This document shows, in pieces, positions 316 to 10,671 of a stretch of 64,000 bases of DNA. How positions within the stretch are numbered: position 1 is the first letter of the stretch; each line of letters opens with the position of its first letter. The position numbers and the translations under genes were made by a program. Source of the stretch: Terriglobia bacterium (GTDB taxonomy: Bacteria > Acidobacteriota > UBA6911). The DNA lies in the NCBI GenBank assembly GCA_020072565.1, contig JAIQGI010000009.1, positions 62,001-126,000 on the forward strand. Direction: 5' to 3'. A model generated the notes under the pieces. That model worked only from the letters and a program-made list of their open reading frames with translations, was not told the origin of the DNA and made no database searches.

Positions 316-2595
316 CTACCGCAAGGACACGCTGCCGGCGACCAAGCTGAGGAACGCATCTACCCGGAGCCGGATCTGTTGGACGTCGGAAGGCGAATAA
401 TCCGTGACGATTTTCAGGAAGGGGAGGCCGTGCTTTCTCTCGATGTGTCGCCTGAGGACTTCGGATTCCACGTCATAGGTGAGGCATGATTGCCAGACGA
501 GGTCGACGATCCCTCCAGGCTTGAAGTCTTCGATCAGGCGGTCTACGTATTCCATCCGGCCGGCGTTCGGGGTCATGCACGAGCAGGGAAGGTGGAGGTA
601 TTTCCGGGCGATCGCCTCGACAGGATCACCCTCCTCGGCGACGTCTTCGAGAATCGGCTTCAACCCGGTGCAATTCTCTTGGGCCACGACTGTCGCCCCA
701 GCCGCTTCGATGATTTCCAATACTTTCTCGGCGCCTTGCGGCATCGGAACACCGGTCATCAGGATCCGCGGCCTTTTCCACTGCAGAGCGGATGCCGCGA
801 TGCGGAGATGATCCTTCGGGTGGGAAGCCGCCGAGTCGGATTGGGCGATGATCATCTCATAGGCTTCGAGGTCCTCCGGAATCCCGGAGATCTGGCTCTT
901 CGCGGCAAGGATTTCCCGCCCTGTGAGCGGGTTCCCGGCCCGACTGGCGATCTCCCGGCGGAGCGCCCTTTCCCGGTTCATCATCCGTATTGCCTCAGCC
1001 AGGCGCTCCCCGGTCACCGCGTTGCCCGTCAGCGCCTCCATCCGGCGGCAAAGGCCCTCGACTTCGGACTTCCAGCGGCCATAGGCGCCCACGTCATCCG
1101 GCTTCTGGGGAAGCTCAAGGACATGGATTGGCTTGAAGCCGCCCAGAAGCTCAAACATCTTTTTCTTCCCGTCGCAGGTCGTCTCGGCCACGACCAAGTC
1201 GCTCATCTCGAAAAAGGGGCTCGCCTTTTCGAGGGCGAAGCCGTAGCTCGACTTGATCAGGGGGCAGAGGCCGGCGGGAAGGTCACGCTCCGCATCGAGG
1301 GCGGCTTTGTGGCTCCCGCCGCAGGCGCAGACCGGAACGGCGCCGGCCGCCATGATGATTTCGCGCGGCGTGAATTCGCAGAAGGTCGAGACGATCTTCT
1401 TCCCCGCGGCCTTGGCCTCGCGGGCGAAATCCAAGGCATTCGCCACCGTTCGGTCGAATCGAGCGAGCGCGGGAACGGTGTGCAGGCATGCACTTCGTGG
1501 AGTCGCATCGATATGCCCGCCGCCGGCCGCAGACGCGTGGCAGCCCGCGCCCTGGTTCGGTACCGCGCCGTGTCGCGATTCGGCTCGGCTCGGCGCTTCG
1601 GATGCGTTGGCCATAACCGCTGTGTTGTCGCGATCCCTCCCTGGCCCGGCGCCGGCGCCGCGTGGAGGAAGGGGAACGGGACCCGAATCCAGTCCACACT
1701 CGCGCGGCGCGGATTCACCGGCCCGAAAGTCCGCGATCGTGACGTGTTTCGGCTCGGCTTCCGGAATCCCGCGCGCGACAGCGATCCCGGCCAGCCGCCC
1801 CTGATGACCGAGCCGCCTTGCGCCCACGAGCGCCGCGCCGAGCGCTCCCGTGATCCGGGGATCGGCCGGGACGATCAGCCTTTCTCGGAGCTCCCGGCCC
1901 AGGGCCGCAACCATCGCCTCGTTCAACGCCACACCGCCCGTAAAGGCGACCGGAGCGCGGACCCCGACGCGTTCGGCCAGCCCTGCCACCCGCCGGGCGA
2001 TCGATCGGACGATCCCTGCGGCAATCTCCTCCCGGGGAACGCCACGAGCGATCATCCCAATCACCTCGGATTCGGCGAAAACGACGCACATCGAGCTGAT
2101 CTCGGACTCGGCCGATGCGCGCCGGGCCAACGCGGACAGGCCGTCGATGTCCGAGCCCAAGATTCTCGCGGCGACTTCGAGGAACCGGCCGCAACCCGCG
2201 GCGCAGCGATCGTTCAAGGCGAAGTCGCGGACCTTGCCGCTCCCGTCGTCTGCGAGCAGAATGGACTTGCAGTCCTGGCCGCCGATGTCGATCACGGTCC
2301 TGACTTCGGGGCGAACGGCGGCGACTCCGACCGCGTGACAGGATATTTCCGTAGCCGTTTCGTGGGCGAGCCCTGGCTGAACGCGGCCATAGCCTGTGGC
2401 CACGATGCGCAGGAGGTTTTCCCTAGGGGTTCCGGCCGCCTCCATGACCTCGCGGATCAAGAGCTCGGCATCCGCGGTCTTGTCGGACGTTCCATCCCGG
2501 ACGCATGCGGCCGCGACGCGCGACCCGGCCAGATCATAGAGAACCGCCTTGACTGCGCGGCTTCCCAGGTCCAATCCCAAAATCAGCTCAGGCAC
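316..2595 (-). CDS. Activase-DCCP fusion: HgdC/YjiL-type ATPase joined to YjiM-type double-cubane protein
   Basis: About 759 residues. Residues 1-260 are a BadF/BadG/HgdC-type ATPase of the ASKHA fold: LGLDLGS near residue 7, DIGGQ near 103, NDRC with Cys131 and SMC with Cys170 (the pair that holds the bridging [4Fe-4S] in this family), and FTGG near 218. A Pro/Gly-rich linker covers about 265-375. Residues 380-759 match the HgdB-like YjiM/double-cubane family: FCEFTPRE (Cys406), CACGG (423/425), CPLIKSSYG (444), TTCDGKKKM (474), then NCTG, CSCMTPN and QSCLTYD near the C-terminus. In known systems the activase hydrolyses ATP to push a low-potential electron into the HgdB/DCCP partner; here both are one chain. 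The GTG start is chosen because GAGGAG lies 5 bases upstream and the frame begins 8 bases inside the previous gene, giving translational coupling. Substrate unknown. Confidence 0.88.
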   Translation of the reverse strand: MPELILGLDLGSRAVKAVLYDLAGSRVAAACVRDGTSDKTADAELLIREVMEAAGTPRENLLRIVATGYGRVQPGLAHETATEISCHAVGVAAVRPEVRTVIDIGGQDCKSILLADDGSGKVRDFALNDRCAAGCGRFLEVAARILGSDIDGLSALARRASAESEISSMCVVFAESEVIGMIARGVPREEIAAGIVRSIARRVAGLAERVGVRAPVAFTGGVALNEAMVAALGRELRERLIVPADPRITGALGAALVGARRLGHQGRLAGIAVARGIPEAEPKHVTIADFRAGESAPRECGLDSGPVPLPPRGAGAGPGRDRDNTAVMANASEAPSRAESRHGAVPNQGAGCHASAAGGGHIDATPRSACLHTVPALARFDRTVANALDFAREAKAAGKKIVSTFCEFTPREIIMAAGAVPVCACGGSHKAALDAERDLPAGLCPLIKSSYGFALEKASPFFEMSDLVVAETTCDGKKKMFELLGGFKPIHVLELPQKPDDVGAYGRWKSEVEGLCRRMEALTGNAVTGERLAEAIRMMNRERALRREIASRAGNPLTGREILAAKSQISGIPEDLEAYEMIIAQSDSAASHPKDHLRIAASALQWKRPRILMTGVPMPQGAEKVLEIIEAAGATVVAQENCTGLKPILEDVAEEGDPVEAIARKYLHLPCSCMTPNAGRMEYVDRLIEDFKPGGIVDLVWQSCLTYDVESEVLRRHIERKHGLPFLKIVTDYSPSDVQQIRLRVDAFLSLVAGSVSLR

Positions 2596-3976
2596 GGTGT
2601 CTCCTCGAGCGGATGATATCGAAAAAGCCCTCGAAGCGGGTTGCGAGCTGGCCAACCGAAGCGTCGATGAGGGGCGGAACGACGATCTCCAGGACGGGGA
2701 GGTCCAGGGCGCTCAGGACCTCCTGTCGAATGATCAGGCCCTCGGTCGCGCAATGAGACGCGCCGGGGATAGCTGAAACGATGACGCCTTCGGCGCCGTA
2801 TTTCCGGGCCTCCTCGATCACGATTCTGGCCCGATATCCGGCCGTCCCGATCATAGGATCGCGGAGGGCCGTTTCGGCCAGGGCGACAAGAGGCGGGCGG
2901 TCTTCAGGGATCGGAACCAGGGCGTGCCGGAGGAGATACTCGGTCCCGGCGAGCGCCCCACCCATATCCTCGAACATGTTCATCGCCCTGAGGTCAGCGA
3001 CTGGATTGACCCAGACGACCCGGCAGGAATCGGCCCGAAGGACGCCGTCCCCGGCGGCGACACGTTTTTCGACCGTCCGAAGCACCTCCTCGAGGACCCG
3101 GATGCACTCATCCTGATCCGAACAGAAATGGATCGTGAGCATCTCGCAAATCTGGGTCTCCAGGGCGGGAAACGGCGGCGGGATCACCCCGTAGCTCAAG
3201 TCGCGGATCCGGGCGAGGAGACCGCGGGCGCAGTTGGCTTTCAGGATTCCCTCCGAAAGCATGTCATCCGTGATGGGCCGGCCGGCGAGGTCGCCGACGG
3301 CCCGGCGGACGAGATCGAGCTGGCCGGCGACGAATCGGATCGCATCGGGCGAAGCCTCATCTGTTCTTCGGTAGGGGAGCTCCCACCAGACTATCGGGCT
3401 TCCCAGGTCGGCCAGGCGCTGCATCAAACAGGACATGTCATCGCACGTGGCACCGACAGCGGCGACGAGAAGGTCCGGGATGGGAAAATGGGCTCTGTTG
3501 AGAAAGGCGGCCAGGGTCGCGCGCACCGGGCAGACCTCCTCGCCATACCCGGCCGCGTCTGCGATTCGGAGGAGCCCTTCGTTCATCTCCATGACGCAAG
3601 GGATCCACCATGCTCCGTCGGGGTAGAACGCGACGACGCCGGGGGCCGAATATGCGATGACCGGAGCGGTCCCGAGGTCCTTCATAGCTCCGACGATTTT
3701 CTTTCCCGCCCGGCGCGCAGCGGCGAGGCGGTCATTCTCGGAAAGAAGGAATGACCAGAGCCGATAAGCGGCCCGGGAGTTGTCGAAGCTCAAGCTTCGC
3801 AGCCGGGAATCGCCCTCAAGCTCCACGAAACACCGCGGCGTCTTGAGGTAGCCTGGTGTTTCAATCGGGCTGCTCGATGCCGCTTCTGCTTCGCAGCTCT
3901 CCGCCGTGATTCCGCGGAACGCGGCGTTCCAGGCCTCGAAATCGACCTTGGCGGGGAGCGGATCGGCAGGTCTCAT
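2588..3976 (-). CDS. 2-hydroxyacyl-CoA dehydratase family protein (HgdB/D-component type), paralog 2
   Basis: About 462 residues, cytoplasmic. The body has the HgdB-family layout: an N-terminal region of about 100 residues, then AAGKKIVGAMKDLG, TCDDMSC (cluster-ligand Cys candidates), and a C-terminal segment with GAEGVIV, ASHC and DLPVLEIVVPPLIDASVGQLATRFE-like residues, close to the family's terminal strand-helix signature. Relatives carry a [4Fe-4S] or double-cubane cluster and take part in radical dehydration or ATP-driven reduction. The start is the ATG that overlaps the stop of the upstream paralog (ATGA), so the two are translationally coupled; a longer upstream frame exists but would run deep into that gene. 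Position 2 of 3 HgdB-like genes in the operon suggests a heteromeric partner of paralog 1. Substrate not deducible. Confidence 0.8.
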   Translation of the reverse strand: MRPADPLPAKVDFEAWNAAFRGITAESCEAEAASSSPIETPGYLKTPRCFVELEGDSRLRSLSFDNSRAAYRLWSFLLSENDRLAAARRAGKKIVGAMKDLGTAPVIAYSAPGVVAFYPDGAWWIPCVMEMNEGLLRIADAAGYGEEVCPVRATLAAFLNRAHFPIPDLLVAAVGATCDDMSCLMQRLADLGSPIVWWELPYRRTDEASPDAIRFVAGQLDLVRRAVGDLAGRPITDDMLSEGILKANCARGLLARIRDLSYGVIPPPFPALETQICEMLTIHFCSDQDECIRVLEEVLRTVEKRVAAGDGVLRADSCRVVWVNPVADLRAMNMFEDMGGALAGTEYLLRHALVPIPEDRPPLVALAETALRDPMIGTAGYRARIVIEEARKYGAEGVIVSAIPGASHCATEGLIIRQEVLSALDLPVLEIVVPPLIDASVGQLATRFEGFFDIIRSRRHRA

Positions 3977-5022
3977 TGCAGCCCCTCCGCGAAGGCTTCC
4001 ACCCGCATCCGGATGCGGACGGAATCGATGTCGCCATAGCTCACATCCAAGGCCAGAAAGGGGAGGCCGAGGATCCGCATGGCTCGCGGCGCCTCGAGGC
4101 CGTGAATGTCGCACCCTCTGACCGACTTCCAGACCACCCCCCGAACCCCCCGGCTCGCAGCGAGCCGAGCCGTGTATCCGTAGAATTCGTCATTCGGCCG
4201 GACGAACGGACAGGGGGGCCGCCGGAAATATGTCCGGGCGAGAATCTCGAGCGGATGGCAGCCGGCGTCGAGGACGGCCGTGAAATCGACCGCCCGGTCG
4301 CCGGTGCAGGTCGCGTCGGCGACGACCGAGAGACCTGCGTCTTCGAGGAGTTCGAGCCAGCGAAGGTCGGCTGGCGTATGTGGACTGCCCGCGACCAGGA
4401 TGGGAATTCCGGCGCTCCGGCTCACACCGAAAGCCCAGCCGTCCAAGATCGCCCGCGTTTCCTCCTGTGGAAGGCCGGCGTCAAGCTGGACGAGGGCTGC
4501 GAAGTCGGGCCCGGCGAGCGTCGGCCGGAATTTCCGCATCCGCTCTCGGATGCCGTCGCGAATGACAATCGCGCGAAGAAGGGACGCGGGATCAAGGGCC
4601 CTTCCCGTGCGCCGGGTGAGCTCACCCGCGAGCCACTCGAGCTCGCCGAGATACAGGGCCTCGGCTTCGGCTGTCCTCGTTTTGGGGATATGAATGACGA
4701 TGGCCGCCGCCCCGGAATGCCGGCCGGCGATCTCGATCATCCGCCGCATCTGGTCGCAGGTCGCGCCCCCTACCCAAACCGCTCCGGCTTCTTCCGAGCC
4801 CAGCGCGGATTTGCACCAGGCGCACGCCCCAGGCCCTGACCGTGCCTCGCCCCTCGATTCGGACACGACCGTCCCGGGAGGCAAGAGCCGAGGCGCATTT
4901 AGTCCGAAGGCTTCGAAGAGTTCCCGAGGGACGCAGCTGCAGGTCGTCTTGAAGGCGCCGGCCGGGCGGACCAACGCCTCGGCGGCCGCGGCCCTCAAGC
5001 TCGTTTGTGAGTCGGGTGTCAT
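3973..5022 (-). CDS. 2-hydroxyacyl-CoA dehydratase family protein (HgdB type), paralog 1
   Basis: 349 residues. Motifs of the HgdB/BcrB-C family are visible: CSCVPRELFEAFG (about residues 28-40), WCKSALG, GGATCDQMRRM near 85, the second Rossmann-like half starting SAGIPILVAGSPH, PPCPF, and the terminal LDVSYGDIDSVRIRMRVEAF. Conserved Cys at the first, TCD and later positions are the expected Fe-S ligands. The length is close to ordinary HgdA/HgdB subunits (about 330-430). It starts 45 bases after the methyltransferase stop and overlaps the next gene by four bases (ATGA). With paralog 2 it could form an alpha/beta dehydratase or reductase that is energised by the fused activase two genes downstream. 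That role is inference. Confidence 0.8.
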   Translation of the reverse strand: MTPDSQTSLRAAAAEALVRPAGAFKTTCSCVPRELFEAFGLNAPRLLPPGTVVSESRGEARSGPGACAWCKSALGSEEAGAVWVGGATCDQMRRMIEIAGRHSGAAAIVIHIPKTRTAEAEALYLGELEWLAGELTRRTGRALDPASLLRAIVIRDGIRERMRKFRPTLAGPDFAALVQLDAGLPQEETRAILDGWAFGVSRSAGIPILVAGSPHTPADLRWLELLEDAGLSVVADATCTGDRAVDFTAVLDAGCHPLEILARTYFRRPPCPFVRPNDEFYGYTARLAASRGVRGVVWKSVRGCDIHGLEAPRAMRILGLPFLALDVSYGDIDSVRIRMRVEAFAEGLQ

Positions 5023-5067
5023 GTCTCTCGGGGCACCTGATCCGCGCGGCCGGGCCAGCCGCGAACC

Positions 5068-5856
5068 CTATTTCCTGACTCCGATGAACCGGCCGCGGGC
5101 AATCTTGCCGGCGTGGACATTGGCCTGCATGTCGGACATCTCCACCCCCAGGCCCTGGAAAACGGCGATATCCCCGCCCAGGATACGGAGGGCGTCGAAG
5201 GTCAACTGCTCGGTGAGCATGGCGAGGTAGAGGTCGACGTACTTCGCGAACGGGATCTCCACGGACTCCTTCACTGCGAACCCGTGTTTTTCTAAAAGCG
5301 TCCGATAGCCCGGGATCGACTCCATAGCCGGGAACTTCATGAAGGAGTTGAACCGGAGGGCCTCCGCCTCGGTCAACCCGGCCGGCCCCTCGACCCAATC
5401 TGTGAACGCGACGACGCCCCCCTTCTTCAGGAGCCGGTCCGCTTCACCGACGAGCCTGTCCTTGTCTGCCACGTAACACCAGGCGTCTTCGCCCCAGACG
5501 AAGTCGAAGGCTGCGTCCGGGTACGGCACGGCCTGGACGTCTCCGAGTTTGAATTCGATCCCCCATTCGGCAAAGGGCGCCCGTTTCCTGGCTTCCTCAA
5601 TCATGTAGGGCGTGGCGTCCACGCCGCACATGACGGCCTCGAAATTCCTGGCCAGGAACCGGCAGCCGGCGCCCAGGGCGCAACACAGGTCAACGCCGCG
5701 CATCCCTGCCTTGATCCCCGCCTTTTGGGCGAGCTCCGTCGACGAGGCGAAGCCCCCGGCATGGATCTGTTCCCCCATGACGAGTTCCCAGAGCCGGCCT
5801 TCAGGGCCGGAATAGACGCCCTGGACGTCCTCGAGCTTGATTCCGGATTGTCTCAT
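5068..5856 (-). CDS. Class I SAM-dependent methyltransferase, first gene of the HgdB/DCCP operon
   Basis: 262 residues. Methyltransferase_11-type core: VDLCCALGAGCRFLA (motif I, about residues 55-69), CGVDATPYMIEEAR (motif II), LGDVQAVPYPDAAFDFVWGEDAWCYV (motif III region) and LLKKGGVVAFTDWVEG (post III). The overall look is that of sarcosine/dimethylglycine or phosphoethanolamine N-methyltransferase relatives; the C-terminal third with HGFAVKES and VDLYLAML fits that group. It is the promoter-proximal gene of the minus-strand operon and is followed after 45 bases by HgdB paralog 1. This suggests methylation of the same substrate or product the Fe-S enzymes act on, but no substrate is shown by the sequence. 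ATG at 5856 is the only sensible start. Confidence 0.85.
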   Translation of the reverse strand: MRQSGIKLEDVQGVYSGPEGRLWELVMGEQIHAGGFASSTELAQKAGIKAGMRGVDLCCALGAGCRFLARNFEAVMCGVDATPYMIEEARKRAPFAEWGIEFKLGDVQAVPYPDAAFDFVWGEDAWCYVADKDRLVGEADRLLKKGGVVAFTDWVEGPAGLTEAEALRFNSFMKFPAMESIPGYRTLLEKHGFAVKESVEIPFAKYVDLYLAMLTEQLTFDALRILGGDIAVFQGLGVEMSDMQANVHAGKIARGRFIGVRK

Positions 5857-6052: not shown

Positions 6053-6425
6053 ATGTCAAATGAGAGGGGCTGACCTCTGCGATTCAGACACTGGACGCAA
6101 TCCTGGCGGCGATGCATCTTCACGAAAGTTGGAACCGCACTCGTTCGACAGTCACATTGTCGACTTGGTTGCGGCCCGCACTCGGATTTTTCGCCGCTGG
6201 GTCGGCCTGGACAGCTGTATCTGCCTTCATTATGTGGGGCTGTCGGGATGGGAGTGCTTGCCGATCAATCTCGACATCGTCGAAGAGGCATACTCCTTGC
6301 CGGAGCCGTTCCACGCTGACCCGGTGGACCGACTCCTGGTCGCGACCGCACGCATACATGGTCTGCATCTGATCACCGGCGACGAGAAGAAACTTCTCTA
6401 TCCGCACGTCCACACAATATGGTGA
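6053..6425 (+). pseudogene. Decayed toxin-antitoxin remnant with VapC/PIN C-terminus
   Basis: A strong GGAGGAG site (6043-6049) precedes ATG 6053, but that frame (MSNERG) stops after six codons. The next frame carries on with LTSAIQTLDAILAA, which looks like the opening of a small antitoxin. In a further frame, residues encoded up to 6425 read ECLPINLDIVEEAYSLPEPFHADPVDRLLVATARIHGLHLITGDEKKLL. That matches the C-terminal half of VapC-type PIN domains (DPxDRxLVATA..LxTxDxK). The N-terminal PIN half with its first catalytic Asp is absent. So this appears to be a frameshifted and internally deleted antitoxin-toxin pair, not a working toxin. Confidence 0.6.
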
Positions 6426-6597
6426 ACGCCGGCCACAAGGCTGACAGCGGGAGAGCCGCTCCATGTGTTCCGTACCGGCAAGAATGGAGGTTGAAGCAAG
6501 TATGACGGCATGACGGAACTCTGCCGTGCCCCATCCAGGCGGCGGGGACCATCCACATGCCGGCGGTGCGGATGATGCCCCACCTCCAAAATCGACG

Positions 6598-9500
6598 CTA
6601 CTTCTTGATGCTGGCCGGCCCCTTCGATGAGTTGTAATTCGGATACGGCGGCCGGTGCGGCACCGGCGCCGGATGATCTTTCATCTGTTGGATCGCGATC
6701 GCCACCGCGCGCTCCAGTTGCGGGTCGTGCCCGTCGTGTATCGCCTTCGGATCCAGTTCCGCTTCCACGTCGGGTGCCACGCCTTTGTTCTCCACGTCCC
6801 ACTGACCTTCCGGATTGAAGAACCCAAAGCTCGGCGCGGTCACGCTGCCGCCGTCCATCAACGGCGGGTAGGACCCGACTCCCACCAATCCTCCCCAGGT
6901 GCGTTTGCCTACCAGCGTGCCGATCTTGTTGTAGTGAAACATCCAGGGCATGCAGTCCCCGCCCGAACCGGCGAATTCATTGATGATCATCACCTTCGGT
7001 CCGAAGATGGCGGCAGCCGGCGTGCGATAAATGGCGCCGTAGCGCGGGCTCCAGAACCCTTGCAACGGCCTGCTCAACACGTCGATCACGTAATCGGCAA
7101 CCTGGCCGCCGCTGTTGAAGCGCTCGTCGATGATCGCGCCCTCTTTGTCCGACTGCGCGAAGTAGTAGCGCGTGAAACTGGTCAACCCGCCCTGGCCCGT
7201 ATCGGGCATGTAGACGTACGCCAGTTTTCCGCCGCTCAGCTCATCCACTTTGCGCCGGTTGCCTTCGATCCAGGCCTGTGTGCGCAATTGCGACTCGCTG
7301 GCGGTGGGGATCACGGTAATCTCGTGCGCATTCGCGCCGGTTGCGTCCGAGCCGATGCGCAGGATCACGCGCTTGCCGGCCGTGTTCTCCAGCAGCCGGG
7401 ATACGTCGTCCTTGGCAGTGAGGTCTGTGCCGTTGACCGAGAGCAGGTAATCGCCCACGTTCACATTCAGTCCCGGCGCCGCCAAAGGCGCCTGCAACTG
7501 CGGATTCCAGCTCTCTCCGGTGAAGATCCGCTTGAAACGGTAGCGGCCATTGGCGATTTCGTAGTCCACGCCCAACAGGCCGCCGGATACGCTTCTGGCG
7601 GAAGGAATGTTGCCGCCGCCGCCGCGCAGATGTCCCACCGTAATGTCGCTGATCATGTCGTGGATGATGTAGTTGAGGTCCGTGCGCGAGCCCAGTGCAT
7701 CCAGATACTTCTCGTATTCTTTCTCGGCCTCCACCACGTTCAGGCCGTGGAGGTTCGGATCGTAAAAGTAGCTGCGCTCGATGCGCCACACTTCGTGATA
7801 CATCTGCTTCCACTCGGAGATCGGGTCTACGTAGACTTCCACATCGCTCAGACGCAACGAACCCTCACCGGGCCTGACCGGAGCGGACGAAGACACGATT
7901 ACGTACTGCGGGCCTGCAGCGGCGCCTTGTCCGCCGCGCCCCCCACCACCGCCACCACCTCCCAAGCGTAGCAGCATCCTATCGCCATTTGCCGAGAGGT
8001 CGAACGAGGCGACTCCGTCGGCGAGCTTCTCGATCCGCCGGGCTTTCAAGTCGTACCGCGAAAGGGTCGACCCTCCACCGCCGCCGGCGCCGCGACCGGC
8101 GCCTTCCATGATGTAACAGATCCCGGCCCGCCCGGCGGTCAGCGAAGAGTACGAGCGCGCCGGGATGGAAAGCGTGATGGTGCGCTGCTGGATCCGGTCG
8201 AAATCGATGCGCACGGGCCTGGGTGGCGTGATGGCCGCGGCGGCGCCGCCGCCCCGGCCGCCGCGGCCGGCGCCGGTTCCCGCTTCCGGGGCCGCGCCGG
8301 GCTCTACCGCCTTTTCCTCATCGCTCTCGGGTGCCAGCGGCGATGCTACGTTGTTTGCCAGCACAATCAGGTAGACGCTGCTGGTCACGTCGTGTTCATC
8401 GCTGGTCATGTCCAGCCCGCTTTGTGTCGGGCCATAGTTCGTGCTGGCCGTGAAATAGAGGTACTGTCCGTCACGGTCGAACGCCGGATGGCGCGCATCG
8501 CTCATGCCGTCGGTCACCTGCCGGCTCGTCCCGCTCTCCAGCGAGTAGATCGTGATCGCGTGATGCCGGTTGGGCAGCGACTTGGCGTACGCGATCCACT
8601 TGGAATCGCCCGACCATGCGAAATCCATGCCGCCTTCGCTGATGGTATCCGTATCCACGGTGGCCACCTTACCCGATGCAACCTCGACATCCCACAGGTG
8701 CAGTTGGTTGTCGTTGAATGCGATGTGCTTGCTGTCGGGCGACCACTTCGGATTTGAGTAGTAAGCGGAATGGCCCGCCAGCGCGATCTTGCGCGTCTCG
8801 CCTTCGCCCGTCTGCGGCTTGATGTGCAGCGCGTACTCACCCGACTCGTCGGAGAAGTAGGCAACCGACATTCCATCCGGCGACCATGAAGGCGCCCGAT
8901 CCATCACCCCCGGCGAGTCGGTGAGGTTGCGGATGTCGCCCTTGTCCGCCGGGATCGTAAGGATCTCACCGTGGGCCTCGAGCACCGCGCGGACGCCGGT
9001 GGCGGAGATCCGGACATCGCGAATCTCGCGCGCCACGTTCTGAAAATGGGGCCGCACCTCGGTCAGATCCGCCGCCATTTCGATCGGTACCTGGTGTTCC
9101 TTTTGCGTGGCGAGGTCATAAATGTGGATCTGTCCGAACTGCTCGTAGACGATCCCGCCCGGACCTGCCGTGGCGTACTGAATGTCCTTCCATGTGTTCT
9201 TGATCAGCTCATCGACCTTCTTGCTCTGCGGATCATAACGGAACAGCGTTACCGGGCCGTTGCGGTCGGAGAGGAAGTAAACCTTGTCGCCTATCCACAT
9301 CGGACTGAAGTCGTTCGAGTCCGTGCGCGGGATCTTTTCGGTCTTCAGGTCCGCGAAATCAACTATCCAGATGTAACTGGCGCGGCCCCCCCGATACCGT
9401 CTCCATGAAACGAAGTTGTTGGTATCGGTAGCGAATTGCCCGCCATCGAGCGGTTGATACACCATCCGCTTCATGTCCGGCGAATACGATCCTGCATAGG

Positions 9501-9957
9501 CCATCGGCAACGGCAGCGTTTGAGGCATGCCGCCCTCCGGCGAGACCGTGAAGAGCTGGGTGTAGCGCGAGTAGCTCTCGCGGCTGGAGCGGAACAGGAT
9601 CTGCGTCCCGTCCGGTGTCCAGCCTTCAAGGTAATCGGCGCCCGGATGGTAGGTGATGCGCTTGGGCACCCCGCCCGTCGCCGGCACTGTGAAAATGTCG
9701 GTGTTACCGTCGTACTCGCCCGAGAACGCGATGTTGTTCCCGTCCGGAGAGAATTGGGCAGCGCTCTCCTGCCCTGATCCGACGGTGAGCCGCGTGGCCA
9801 TGCCGCCCTGGCGGCTCACGGTCCACAAATCACCTGCGTAAGAGAATACGATTTGGGTCTTGTTCATGGCGGGCTTCTGCAGCAGGTGTATGGTCCCCGG
9901 TGCGCCGAACGCCCATATCGCTGCAGTCAAAAGCGCAAACAGAATTCGATATTTCAT
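6598..9957 (-). CDS. Tricorn protease homolog (TolB-like propeller + PDZ + S41 peptidase), secreted
   Basis: 1119 residues with an N-terminal signal peptide (MKYRILFALLTAAIWAFGA). Residues about 20-520 are WD40/TolB-like propeller repeats (FSPDGNNIAFSG, WSPDGMSVAYFSD, WSPDSKHIAF). After a Gly/Arg-rich spacer comes a second propeller part, the C1 helical region, a PDZ domain (GLLGVDYEI...VGDYLLSVNG) and the C2 S41-type catalytic domain. The Tricorn triad maps to His776 (VGHLRGGG), Ser998 (NEFAGSGGD) and Glu1056 (VENKGVAPD). Tricorn relatives degrade oligopeptides; the signal peptide places this one in the periplasm or outside, as is common in Acidobacteriota. Two odd tracts (about residues 555-575 and 660-680) are almost pure Gly/Arg/Ala. 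It is transcribed alone. Confidence 0.93.
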   Translation of the reverse strand: MKYRILFALLTAAIWAFGAPGTIHLLQKPAMNKTQIVFSYAGDLWTVSRQGGMATRLTVGSGQESAAQFSPDGNNIAFSGEYDGNTDIFTVPATGGVPKRITYHPGADYLEGWTPDGTQILFRSSRESYSRYTQLFTVSPEGGMPQTLPLPMAYAGSYSPDMKRMVYQPLDGGQFATDTNNFVSWRRYRGGRASYIWIVDFADLKTEKIPRTDSNDFSPMWIGDKVYFLSDRNGPVTLFRYDPQSKKVDELIKNTWKDIQYATAGPGGIVYEQFGQIHIYDLATQKEHQVPIEMAADLTEVRPHFQNVAREIRDVRISATGVRAVLEAHGEILTIPADKGDIRNLTDSPGVMDRAPSWSPDGMSVAYFSDESGEYALHIKPQTGEGETRKIALAGHSAYYSNPKWSPDSKHIAFNDNQLHLWDVEVASGKVATVDTDTISEGGMDFAWSGDSKWIAYAKSLPNRHHAITIYSLESGTSRQVTDGMSDARHPAFDRDGQYLYFTASTNYGPTQSGLDMTSDEHDVTSSVYLIVLANNVASPLAPESDEEKAVEPGAAPEAGTGAGRGGRGGGAAAAITPPRPVRIDFDRIQQRTITLSIPARSYSSLTAGRAGICYIMEGAGRGAGGGGGSTLSRYDLKARRIEKLADGVASFDLSANGDRMLLRLGGGGGGGGRGGQGAAAGPQYVIVSSSAPVRPGEGSLRLSDVEVYVDPISEWKQMYHEVWRIERSYFYDPNLHGLNVVEAEKEYEKYLDALGSRTDLNYIIHDMISDITVGHLRGGGGNIPSARSVSGGLLGVDYEIANGRYRFKRIFTGESWNPQLQAPLAAPGLNVNVGDYLLSVNGTDLTAKDDVSRLLENTAGKRVILRIGSDATGANAHEITVIPTASESQLRTQAWIEGNRRKVDELSGGKLAYVYMPDTGQGGLTSFTRYYFAQSDKEGAIIDERFNSGGQVADYVIDVLSRPLQGFWSPRYGAIYRTPAAAIFGPKVMIINEFAGSGGDCMPWMFHYNKIGTLVGKRTWGGLVGVGSYPPLMDGGSVTAPSFGFFNPEGQWDVENKGVAPDVEAELDPKAIHDGHDPQLERAVAIAIQQMKDHPAPVPHRPPYPNYNSSKGPASIKK

Positions 9958-10110
9958 GCTCTACCTCCGGCTTTTCCGTGTAGTCAAAAGCTAAAGTAAC
10001 CGGCTATGCTGTTGAAATCTTGGGGCGAGAATAGCATGAGTCAGGACAAATCGTCTGCGGAATTCTCCCGGAGGACCCATGGAACGGCTGGTGGTCGCGG
10101 AATCGACGTC
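9958..10110. promoter_or_regulatory. Upstream region of the Tricorn homolog
   Basis: Short AT-richer stretch directly upstream of the Tricorn start (minus strand). It includes CCGGAGGTAG just before the ATG, which provides the ribosome binding site. No clear promoter hexamers were identified. Confidence 0.35.
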
Positions 10111-10671
10111 TTAGTGGGTTGTAACAGGTAGTGCCACGAGGAAGCGATCGGCTCCGGTTCCCATTTGGCCGGACATAGCAGGCCGATGAGCTTCCAGGGG
10201 CAAGAAAAGGAAGAATCCATCCCCGATGTTATAGGCTGCCGGCTCGTGTGAGACCCTGTGAAACCATTGCTTGTAACCGGCATGTGCGGCCAATGTCATT
10301 CCGATCGAAAGCCCAAAATGCAGGGCACGCCGTCCATAAACTTGCCATGGTCGCGCCGAGGCAGCGGTGCCCGTCCATCGGCAGAAAAGGGGAAGCACTG
10401 CCATGGATGCCAAGAGGATTGGGAGAAATGAAATTCTGAGCGTAACAATCACCGTGGAAAGAACGGCAAGGAGGAAAAGCACCAACACCCTGGGGTGCCG
10501 CAAATAGAGGATGCCGGCCAGGACGAAGGCGGCGAATGCCGTCAGAGACAGACATTCGGTCAACATCATCCGTTCGTGCAGCAGGGCAATTGGCTCGAAC
10601 GCGTATGCCAGCCCGGCGCCTGCAGCGATCCAGAATTTTGCGAATCGCCTCAGCCGGATGGATCGCTGCAA
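10111..10671 (-). pseudogene. Fragment of a GT39/PMT-like polytopic membrane protein
   Basis: 186 codons open. The protein has at least three hydrophobic helices. The segment AYAFEPIALLHERMMLTECLSLTAFAAFVLAGILYL resembles the loop and helices of family-39-type membrane glycosyltransferases (P-x-LL-x-ER-xx-TE-x-L). Those proteins are typically 400-600 residues. The N-terminal catalytic part (first cytoplasmic loop with the Asp pair) is missing, with an in-frame stop just upstream, and the frame ends soon after DGFFLFLPLEAHRP, where intact relatives continue. I therefore call it a fragment truncated at both ends. It could alternatively be a small unrelated membrane protein. Confidence 0.5.

Follow-up and report, generated by a model that had tools for sequence, protein, structure and literature searches.

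What might a bacterium do with an operon that joins a methyltransferase and two HGD-D family chains to an activase fused with a double-cubane cluster protein? The question is raised by a 64,000-nucleotide stretch (the window, G000:C9:62001-126000) of the 7.46-Mb draft genome of a Terriglobia bacterium. The families of the individual parts are known; their combination and the role predicted here appear to be new. Comparison with other genomes shows that the operon is an outlying member of a conserved five-gene module that is linked, a point held with high confidence, to the selenium genes SelA, SelB, SelC and SelD. We propose, at about an even chance of being right, that this module supplies selenide, using ATP-driven low-potential electrons to free it from a refractory selenium compound for use by SelD.

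The module consists of an S-adenosylmethionine (SAM)-dependent methyltransferase (MT), a double-cubane cluster protein (DCC), the HGD-D chains N and O, and an activase. Scanning genome contigs with the O chain of the window (P0002) as the query retrieved 49 loci, found in Planctomycetota (mostly Phycisphaerae), Lentisphaerota, Armatimonadota, Sumerlaeota, Myxococcota, Verrucomicrobiota, Kiritimatiellota, and Hydrogenedentes. The five modules are adjacent in about 50 loci, mostly from Planctomycetota, a co-location far beyond chance. The usual order is MT-DCC-N-O-activase, as five separate genes; DCC comes first in loci L087 and L090, and last, fused to the activase, in the window. All window proteins are outliers to the main clade, with mean identities of 54% for MT, 52% for DCC, 51% for O, 47% for the activase, and 28% for N. 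A quick tree of O, which carries a long-branch warning, places the window together with L087 and L088. The initial annotation of this DNA knew of no described system with such a gene set. The MT-DCC-N-O-activase operon was likewise not found described in the literature searched, which consists mostly of papers available without subscription.

Beyond the activase, SelD is the first conserved gene, in most cases as a fusion with an AhpD/carboxymuconolactone decarboxylase domain (in L023, SelD scores 368 bits against TIGR00476). Among the 38 loci whose sequence extends at least 1.5 kb past the activase, SelD lies within that distance in 23. The stretches surrounding 54 loci contain SelD in 34 cases, SelA in 15, SelB in 12, and NapH in 9, and a tRNA scan of 19 loci detected tRNA-Sec in 8. 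L087 encodes NapH-SelA-SelB-DCC-MT-N-O-activase on one strand, and in L033 the operon follows SelA-SelD-SelB. At the genome level, SelA scores above its cut-off in 41 of 43 carriers, including the host. In the class of genome G399 (248 genomes), 19 genomes carry O and 87 carry SelA; SelA is present in 18 of the 19 carriers versus 69 of the 229 non-carriers (Fisher p = 2.5e-8, uncorrected for shared ancestry), and the physical linkage in several phyla argues for the association independently of this statistic. Several loci also carry an NMT1/permease/ATPase importer of the SsuA/TauA/Sao type before the operon. None of this could be seen by the initial annotation, which was made from the sequence alone. 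Related associations have been published: in Slackia, an HGD-D subunit and an activase are associated with SelA, SelB, and SelD (PMC5322559), and DCCP with its reductase is listed among putative selenium metabolism genes of mlp clusters (PMC10418091). In-frame UGA (selenocysteine) codons in the module genes of the relatives were considered and rejected, as the single reported TGA, in genome G458, is apparently the gene's own terminal stop codon.

This gene linkage also fits with selenium being consumed by the operon. SelD would then serve the module, and selenophosphate would end in a cofactor of DCC, N or O, or in a selenium-containing small molecule with MT as the tailoring enzyme. SelD is present in all three carriers without detected SelA, and the orphan SelD associated with molybdenum hydroxylases offers a precedent (PMC2276186). 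However, SelA, SelB, and tRNA-Sec are linked to the module as well, and the occurrence of SelA in nearly all carriers ties it to selenocysteine; furthermore, two of the three SelA-negative genomes contain SelB fragments, and their SelA may be absent only from the assembly. Consumption of selenium by the module is considered unlikely. Replacement of a bridging sulfide by selenide in the double cubane of DCC or N, producing a biological iron-sulfur-selenium cluster, is highly improbable; if true, it would add a further selenium use to selenocysteine, selenouridine, the molybdenum hydroxylase cofactor, and selenoneine.

The SelD fusion with a C-terminal AhpD/carboxymuconolactone decarboxylase domain occurs both in the host (L073:7736-9439, where a CxxC motif was read) and in Planctomycetota (L023:10060-11823), and no description of it was found in the literature searches made. 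The host encodes a second full-length SelD on contig C13 (G000:C13:114307-115233), within an 806-aa open frame, which is perhaps of the known oxidoreductase-SelD type.

Within the window, the four genes are arranged on the minus strand from 5856 to 316, with junctions of +45, -4 (an ATGA overlap), and -8 bases, in agreement with the coordinates initially given (Table 1).

Table 1. Genes and domains of the operon (window positions)
Feature	Position	Strand	Description
SAM-dependent methyltransferase MT (P0004)	5068..5856	-	262 aa; first gene of the operon; Methyltransf_11 69 bits
N subunit (P0003), beta/BzdN-type HGD-D	3973..5022	-	349 aa; PF06050 157 bits
O subunit (P0002), alpha/BzdO-type HGD-D	2588..3976	-	462 aa; PF06050 126 bits
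Fusion gene (P0001), activase + DCC	316..2595	-	759 aa; GTG start; single uninterrupted frame
Activase domain	1822..2595	-	aa 1-258; TIGR00241 233 bits at aa 4-257 (cut-off 125); PF01869 178 bits; bridge cysteines Cys131, Cys170
Linker	1441..1821	-	about aa 259-385; no homologue found
Double-cubane cluster domain DCC	316..1440	-	aa 386-759 and stop codon; NF040772 (double-cubane reductase) 405 bits at aa 387-750 (cut-off 350)

On the basis of profile matches above both curated cut-offs in one frame, the last gene encodes a true activase in frame with a true double-cubane protein, as had been proposed. The activase domain matches the structures of HadI (4eht), HgdC (1hux), and DCCP-R, and its previously noted bridge pair, Cys131 and Cys170, is invariant in 44 sequences. 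The DCC domain matches the DCCP structures 6eno and 7yyl (about 1e-65). The cysteine motifs of the family recognized earlier in this domain also stand: its six cluster cysteines (domain positions 21, 59, 89, 257, 286, and 319) are in register with those of DCCP and are kept in 42 to 43 of 43 sequences.

The fusion itself is not typical of the module, as a genome search of the kind suggested at the outset found the gene set stably linked but the activase and DCC encoded by separate genes in every relative examined. The fusion may have arisen, though this is doubtful, through faulty assembly or through recent read-through between two normally separate genes, in which case the rest of the system stands. 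In addition to the absence of the fusion from relatives, the composition of the linker is gene-unlike, with GC fractions of 0.65 and 0.69 at the second and third codon positions versus 0.44 to 0.55 and 0.77 to 0.83 in the surrounding genes and domains. The linker also contains no stop in a second frame, and translation from an internal ATG (aa 328) would yield a DCC of the usual length. Nevertheless, the frame continues over 2.3 kb within a 173-kb contig, and the position of DCC also varies in L087 and L090. The linker could be either functional or a read-through of former intergenic DNA, and the fusion is not required for the system. An origin of this DCC from the host's other DCCP was rejected on their 34% identity, versus about 52% to the operon DCCs of relatives. 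That second, separate DCCP-activase pair is encoded on host contig C41 (L075:5775-7911), beside an apparent two-component regulator.

The two remaining chains had been described as HgdB paralogs. Both do belong to the HGD-D family, but profiles and AlphaFold (AF2) models show that they are unequal: they are the unlike halves of one heterodimer, with P0002 as the alpha/O and P0003 as the beta/N subunit. A profile of P0003 and its relatives has BzdN as its best PDB match, over the full length (1.7e-27), and the P0003 model (predicted local distance difference test score, 88.5) groups with BzdN, HadC, and DCCP among solved structures, with a target-normalized TM-score of 0.78 for BzdN. The P0002 model (83.9) groups with DCCP and alpha/O subunits; its highest TM-score by target, 0.85, is to the alpha subunit of 2-hydroxyisocaproyl-CoA dehydratase, and that to BzdO is 0.76. 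The comparison of O with BzdO is based on profile scores, Foldseek scores, and sequence position.

The [8Fe-9S] cluster of BzdN has six cysteine ligands, and the open [4Fe-4S] cluster of BzdO has three (PMC11971306). N of the window retains all six BzdN-type candidate ligands of a double cubane (Cys28, Cys67, Cys89, Cys239, Cys271, and Cys304), and O has candidate [4Fe-4S] ligands at places corresponding to those of BzdO (Cys149, Cys178, and Cys409), invariant in 48 sequences. The comparison of the three HgdB-like domains called for earlier thus gives ligand sets that match BzdN for N, BzdO for O, and DCCP for DCC, all of them cluster-competent. If these clusters are assembled, both DCC and N could carry a double cubane, and O a single catalytic cluster with an open site. 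The six cysteines of N are also retained in L088; in the main clade, two of them are mostly replaced by Glu and Asp. In genome G458, L088 includes a second O/N/activase set (at about 6300-10630) whose N has all six cysteines and in which no methyltransferase, DCC or sel genes were recognized; it is possibly an older or differently employed version.

ATP-driven electron injection at very low potential is established for DCCP-R, HgdC, and BzdPQ. By analogy with these proteins, the activase would hydrolyze ATP and pass single electrons of very low potential to the [8Fe-9S] clusters of the DCC domain and N. N would store these electrons and hand them over to the open-site [4Fe-4S] cluster of O, which would bind the selenium atom of the refractory compound, or its carbon or oxygen partner, and cleave it reductively. 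The released selenide would be converted by SelD to selenophosphate for selenocysteine, and MT might methylate surplus selenide or a bound selenol or metalloid, or else prepare the substrate. As SelD is encoded next door, selenide would be the most economical product. The cysteines and folds agree with the BzdNO/DCCP machinery, and TudS, a member of the same superfamily, removes sulfur by means of a three-Cys open-site cluster (PMC10611767), an example of a chalcogen being drawn from carbon onto such a cluster within this superfamily.

Several observations weigh against selenide supply. The window operon stands alone: SelA, SelD-AhpD, SelB, and NapH are found together on host contig C19 and tRNA-Sec on C25, so that the selenium partners are not adjacent. 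In the class of G399, 69 of the 87 SelA genomes lack the operon, which makes it accessory, and N of most relatives lacks two of the six cysteines, so that the system does not require a double cubane in this subunit. Selenide release does not account for a SAM methyltransferase, and no gene identifies the substrate.

The initial annotation had suggested a reductase or dehydratase acting on a methylated substrate. The prediction of an ATP-driven low-potential reductase is retained; the dehydratase and the methylated substrate are not supported, because no acyl-CoA gene was recognized beside the module and its conserved neighbors are selenium genes. In its most specific form, this alternative posits a methylated CoA thioester as the substrate of an enzyme with a dedicated activase, either a 2-hydroxyacyl-CoA dehydratase or a reductase of the benzoyl-CoA type. 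The structures predicted for O and N are those of an alpha/beta pair of this class, and a benzoyl-CoA reductase-type cluster exists elsewhere in the host. However, the annotated neighbors of the module, which do not comprise every neighbor, include no recognized gene for a CoA ligase, a CoA-transferase or beta-oxidation, and the curated cut-offs for the subunits of benzoyl-CoA reductase and hydroxyacyl-CoA dehydratase were missed. P0003 scores 28 bits against the BzdN model (cut-off 454), and P0002 has no Bzd or Bcr match; for HadC (NF052456), no match was reported for P0002 or P0003, and the DCC domain scores 71 bits (cut-off 700). With selenium genes as the conserved neighborhood, the acyl-CoA alternative is improbable. 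The host cluster is located on contig C1 (L076:2292-15195) and includes HGD-D chains and activase-type chains, as well as a CoA ligase and a xanthine dehydrogenase-like subunit, both named by reading only; it suggests anaerobic aromatic degradation in the host.

The closest known systems differ from the module in their composition. The class I benzoyl-CoA reductase BzdNOPQ has a six-Cys N and a three-Cys O of similar folds (PMC11971306), but it has a P/Q activase pair, whereas the operon and its relatives have one activase and an additional DCC, and no CoA pathway genes were recognized beside the operon. HadBC and HgdAB, with HadI and HgdC, likewise combine an alpha/beta HGD-D heterodimer with one activase; the operon relatives differ by their selenium gene neighborhood and by the additional DCC and methyltransferase, and N of the window by its six cysteines. 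DCCP and DCCP-R of Carboxydothermus (YjiM and YjiL in Escherichia coli) are two chains, with DCCP as a separate homodimeric one, whereas in the window a single chain contains both, above the curated cut-offs and with all cluster and bridge cysteines. The genes for an O/N heterodimer and for a methyltransferase accompany it. TudS (DUF523) is a single-domain protein with a three-Cys open-site cluster; O also has three cysteines but is a full-length HGD-D protein. The Slackia selenium locus resembles the module in having an HGD-D protein and an activase with SelA, SelB, and SelD, but its published table names neither a methyltransferase nor an O/N heterodimer (PMC5322559).

MT is a class I SAM methyltransferase, 48 to 57% identical to the methyltransferases of the relatives, with Cys58, Cys59, and Cys127 invariant, a pattern that would favor a soft ligand, for example a selenol or a metalloid. 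It is weakly similar to the ArsM and selenoprotein methyltransferase families. Together with the invariant cysteines, this is consistent with organometal or metalloid handling, in which arsenic, tellurium or mercury compounds would be reduced and methylated; the module would then travel with the selenocysteine genes because the proteins it works with are selenoproteins, an explanation put forward for SAO operons. In L024, the importer ATPase is most similar to SaoA. Its score, however, is below the cut-off (232 versus 360 bits), as is that of the substrate-binding protein (34 versus 300 bits), so that both the SaoA and SaoX tests fall short; no arsenic- or mercury-type genes were recognized among the annotated conserved neighbors, and the solved structures nearest to MT are phosphoethanolamine and sarcosine/dimethylglycine methyltransferases. 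Metalloid handling has only a small probability. Upstream of MT, L028 (4047-4565) and 13 other loci share a conserved gene for a protein of about 172 aa, which has no Pfam or NCBIfam match.

Type I mlp clusters, which function in methyl-selenide/sulfide metabolism, are found in anaerobes with selenocysteine machinery, and DCCP and its reductase are noted among the selenium genes linked to them (PMC10418091); they differ from the operon in that its methyltransferase is SAM-dependent. No MtaA-like methyltransferase, corrinoid protein or RACE activase was recognized among the annotated conserved neighbors. Identity with either an mlp cluster or an SAO operon is not supported by these neighbors, as the defining genes or scores were not found where sought; SaoL and SaoT were not sought directly.

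As for its origin, the operon was probably acquired from outside the phylum of the host, as judged from its distribution: P0002 was sought in 149 relatives of the host and in 396 genomes of the phylum (overlapping samples), with the host as the only carrier, and the gene flanking the operon has its best matches elsewhere in the host's genus and family. The same distribution led to the rejection of vertical inheritance within the phylum, and the native flanking gene makes a contaminant contig unlikely. Upstream of the operon, on the plus strand (6060-6425), a 121-aa frame retains just the C-terminal half of a PIN domain (PF01850, 28 bits) and is probably a decayed VapC-type toxin.

We know of no physiological role for the double-cubane proteins, which, to our knowledge, have been seen to reduce only test molecules such as acetylene and azide. 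The widespread operon ties DCC and a benzoyl-CoA reductase-like heterodimer to SelA, SelB, SelC, and SelD. The six-cysteine N of the window, beside its four-cysteine relatives, suggests that a double cubane was lost within one operon family, a step already proposed for the evolution of this enzyme class. If selenide supply is the true function, the double-cubane proteins would gain a testable role, as the strong-reductant step of selenium acquisition in anaerobes.

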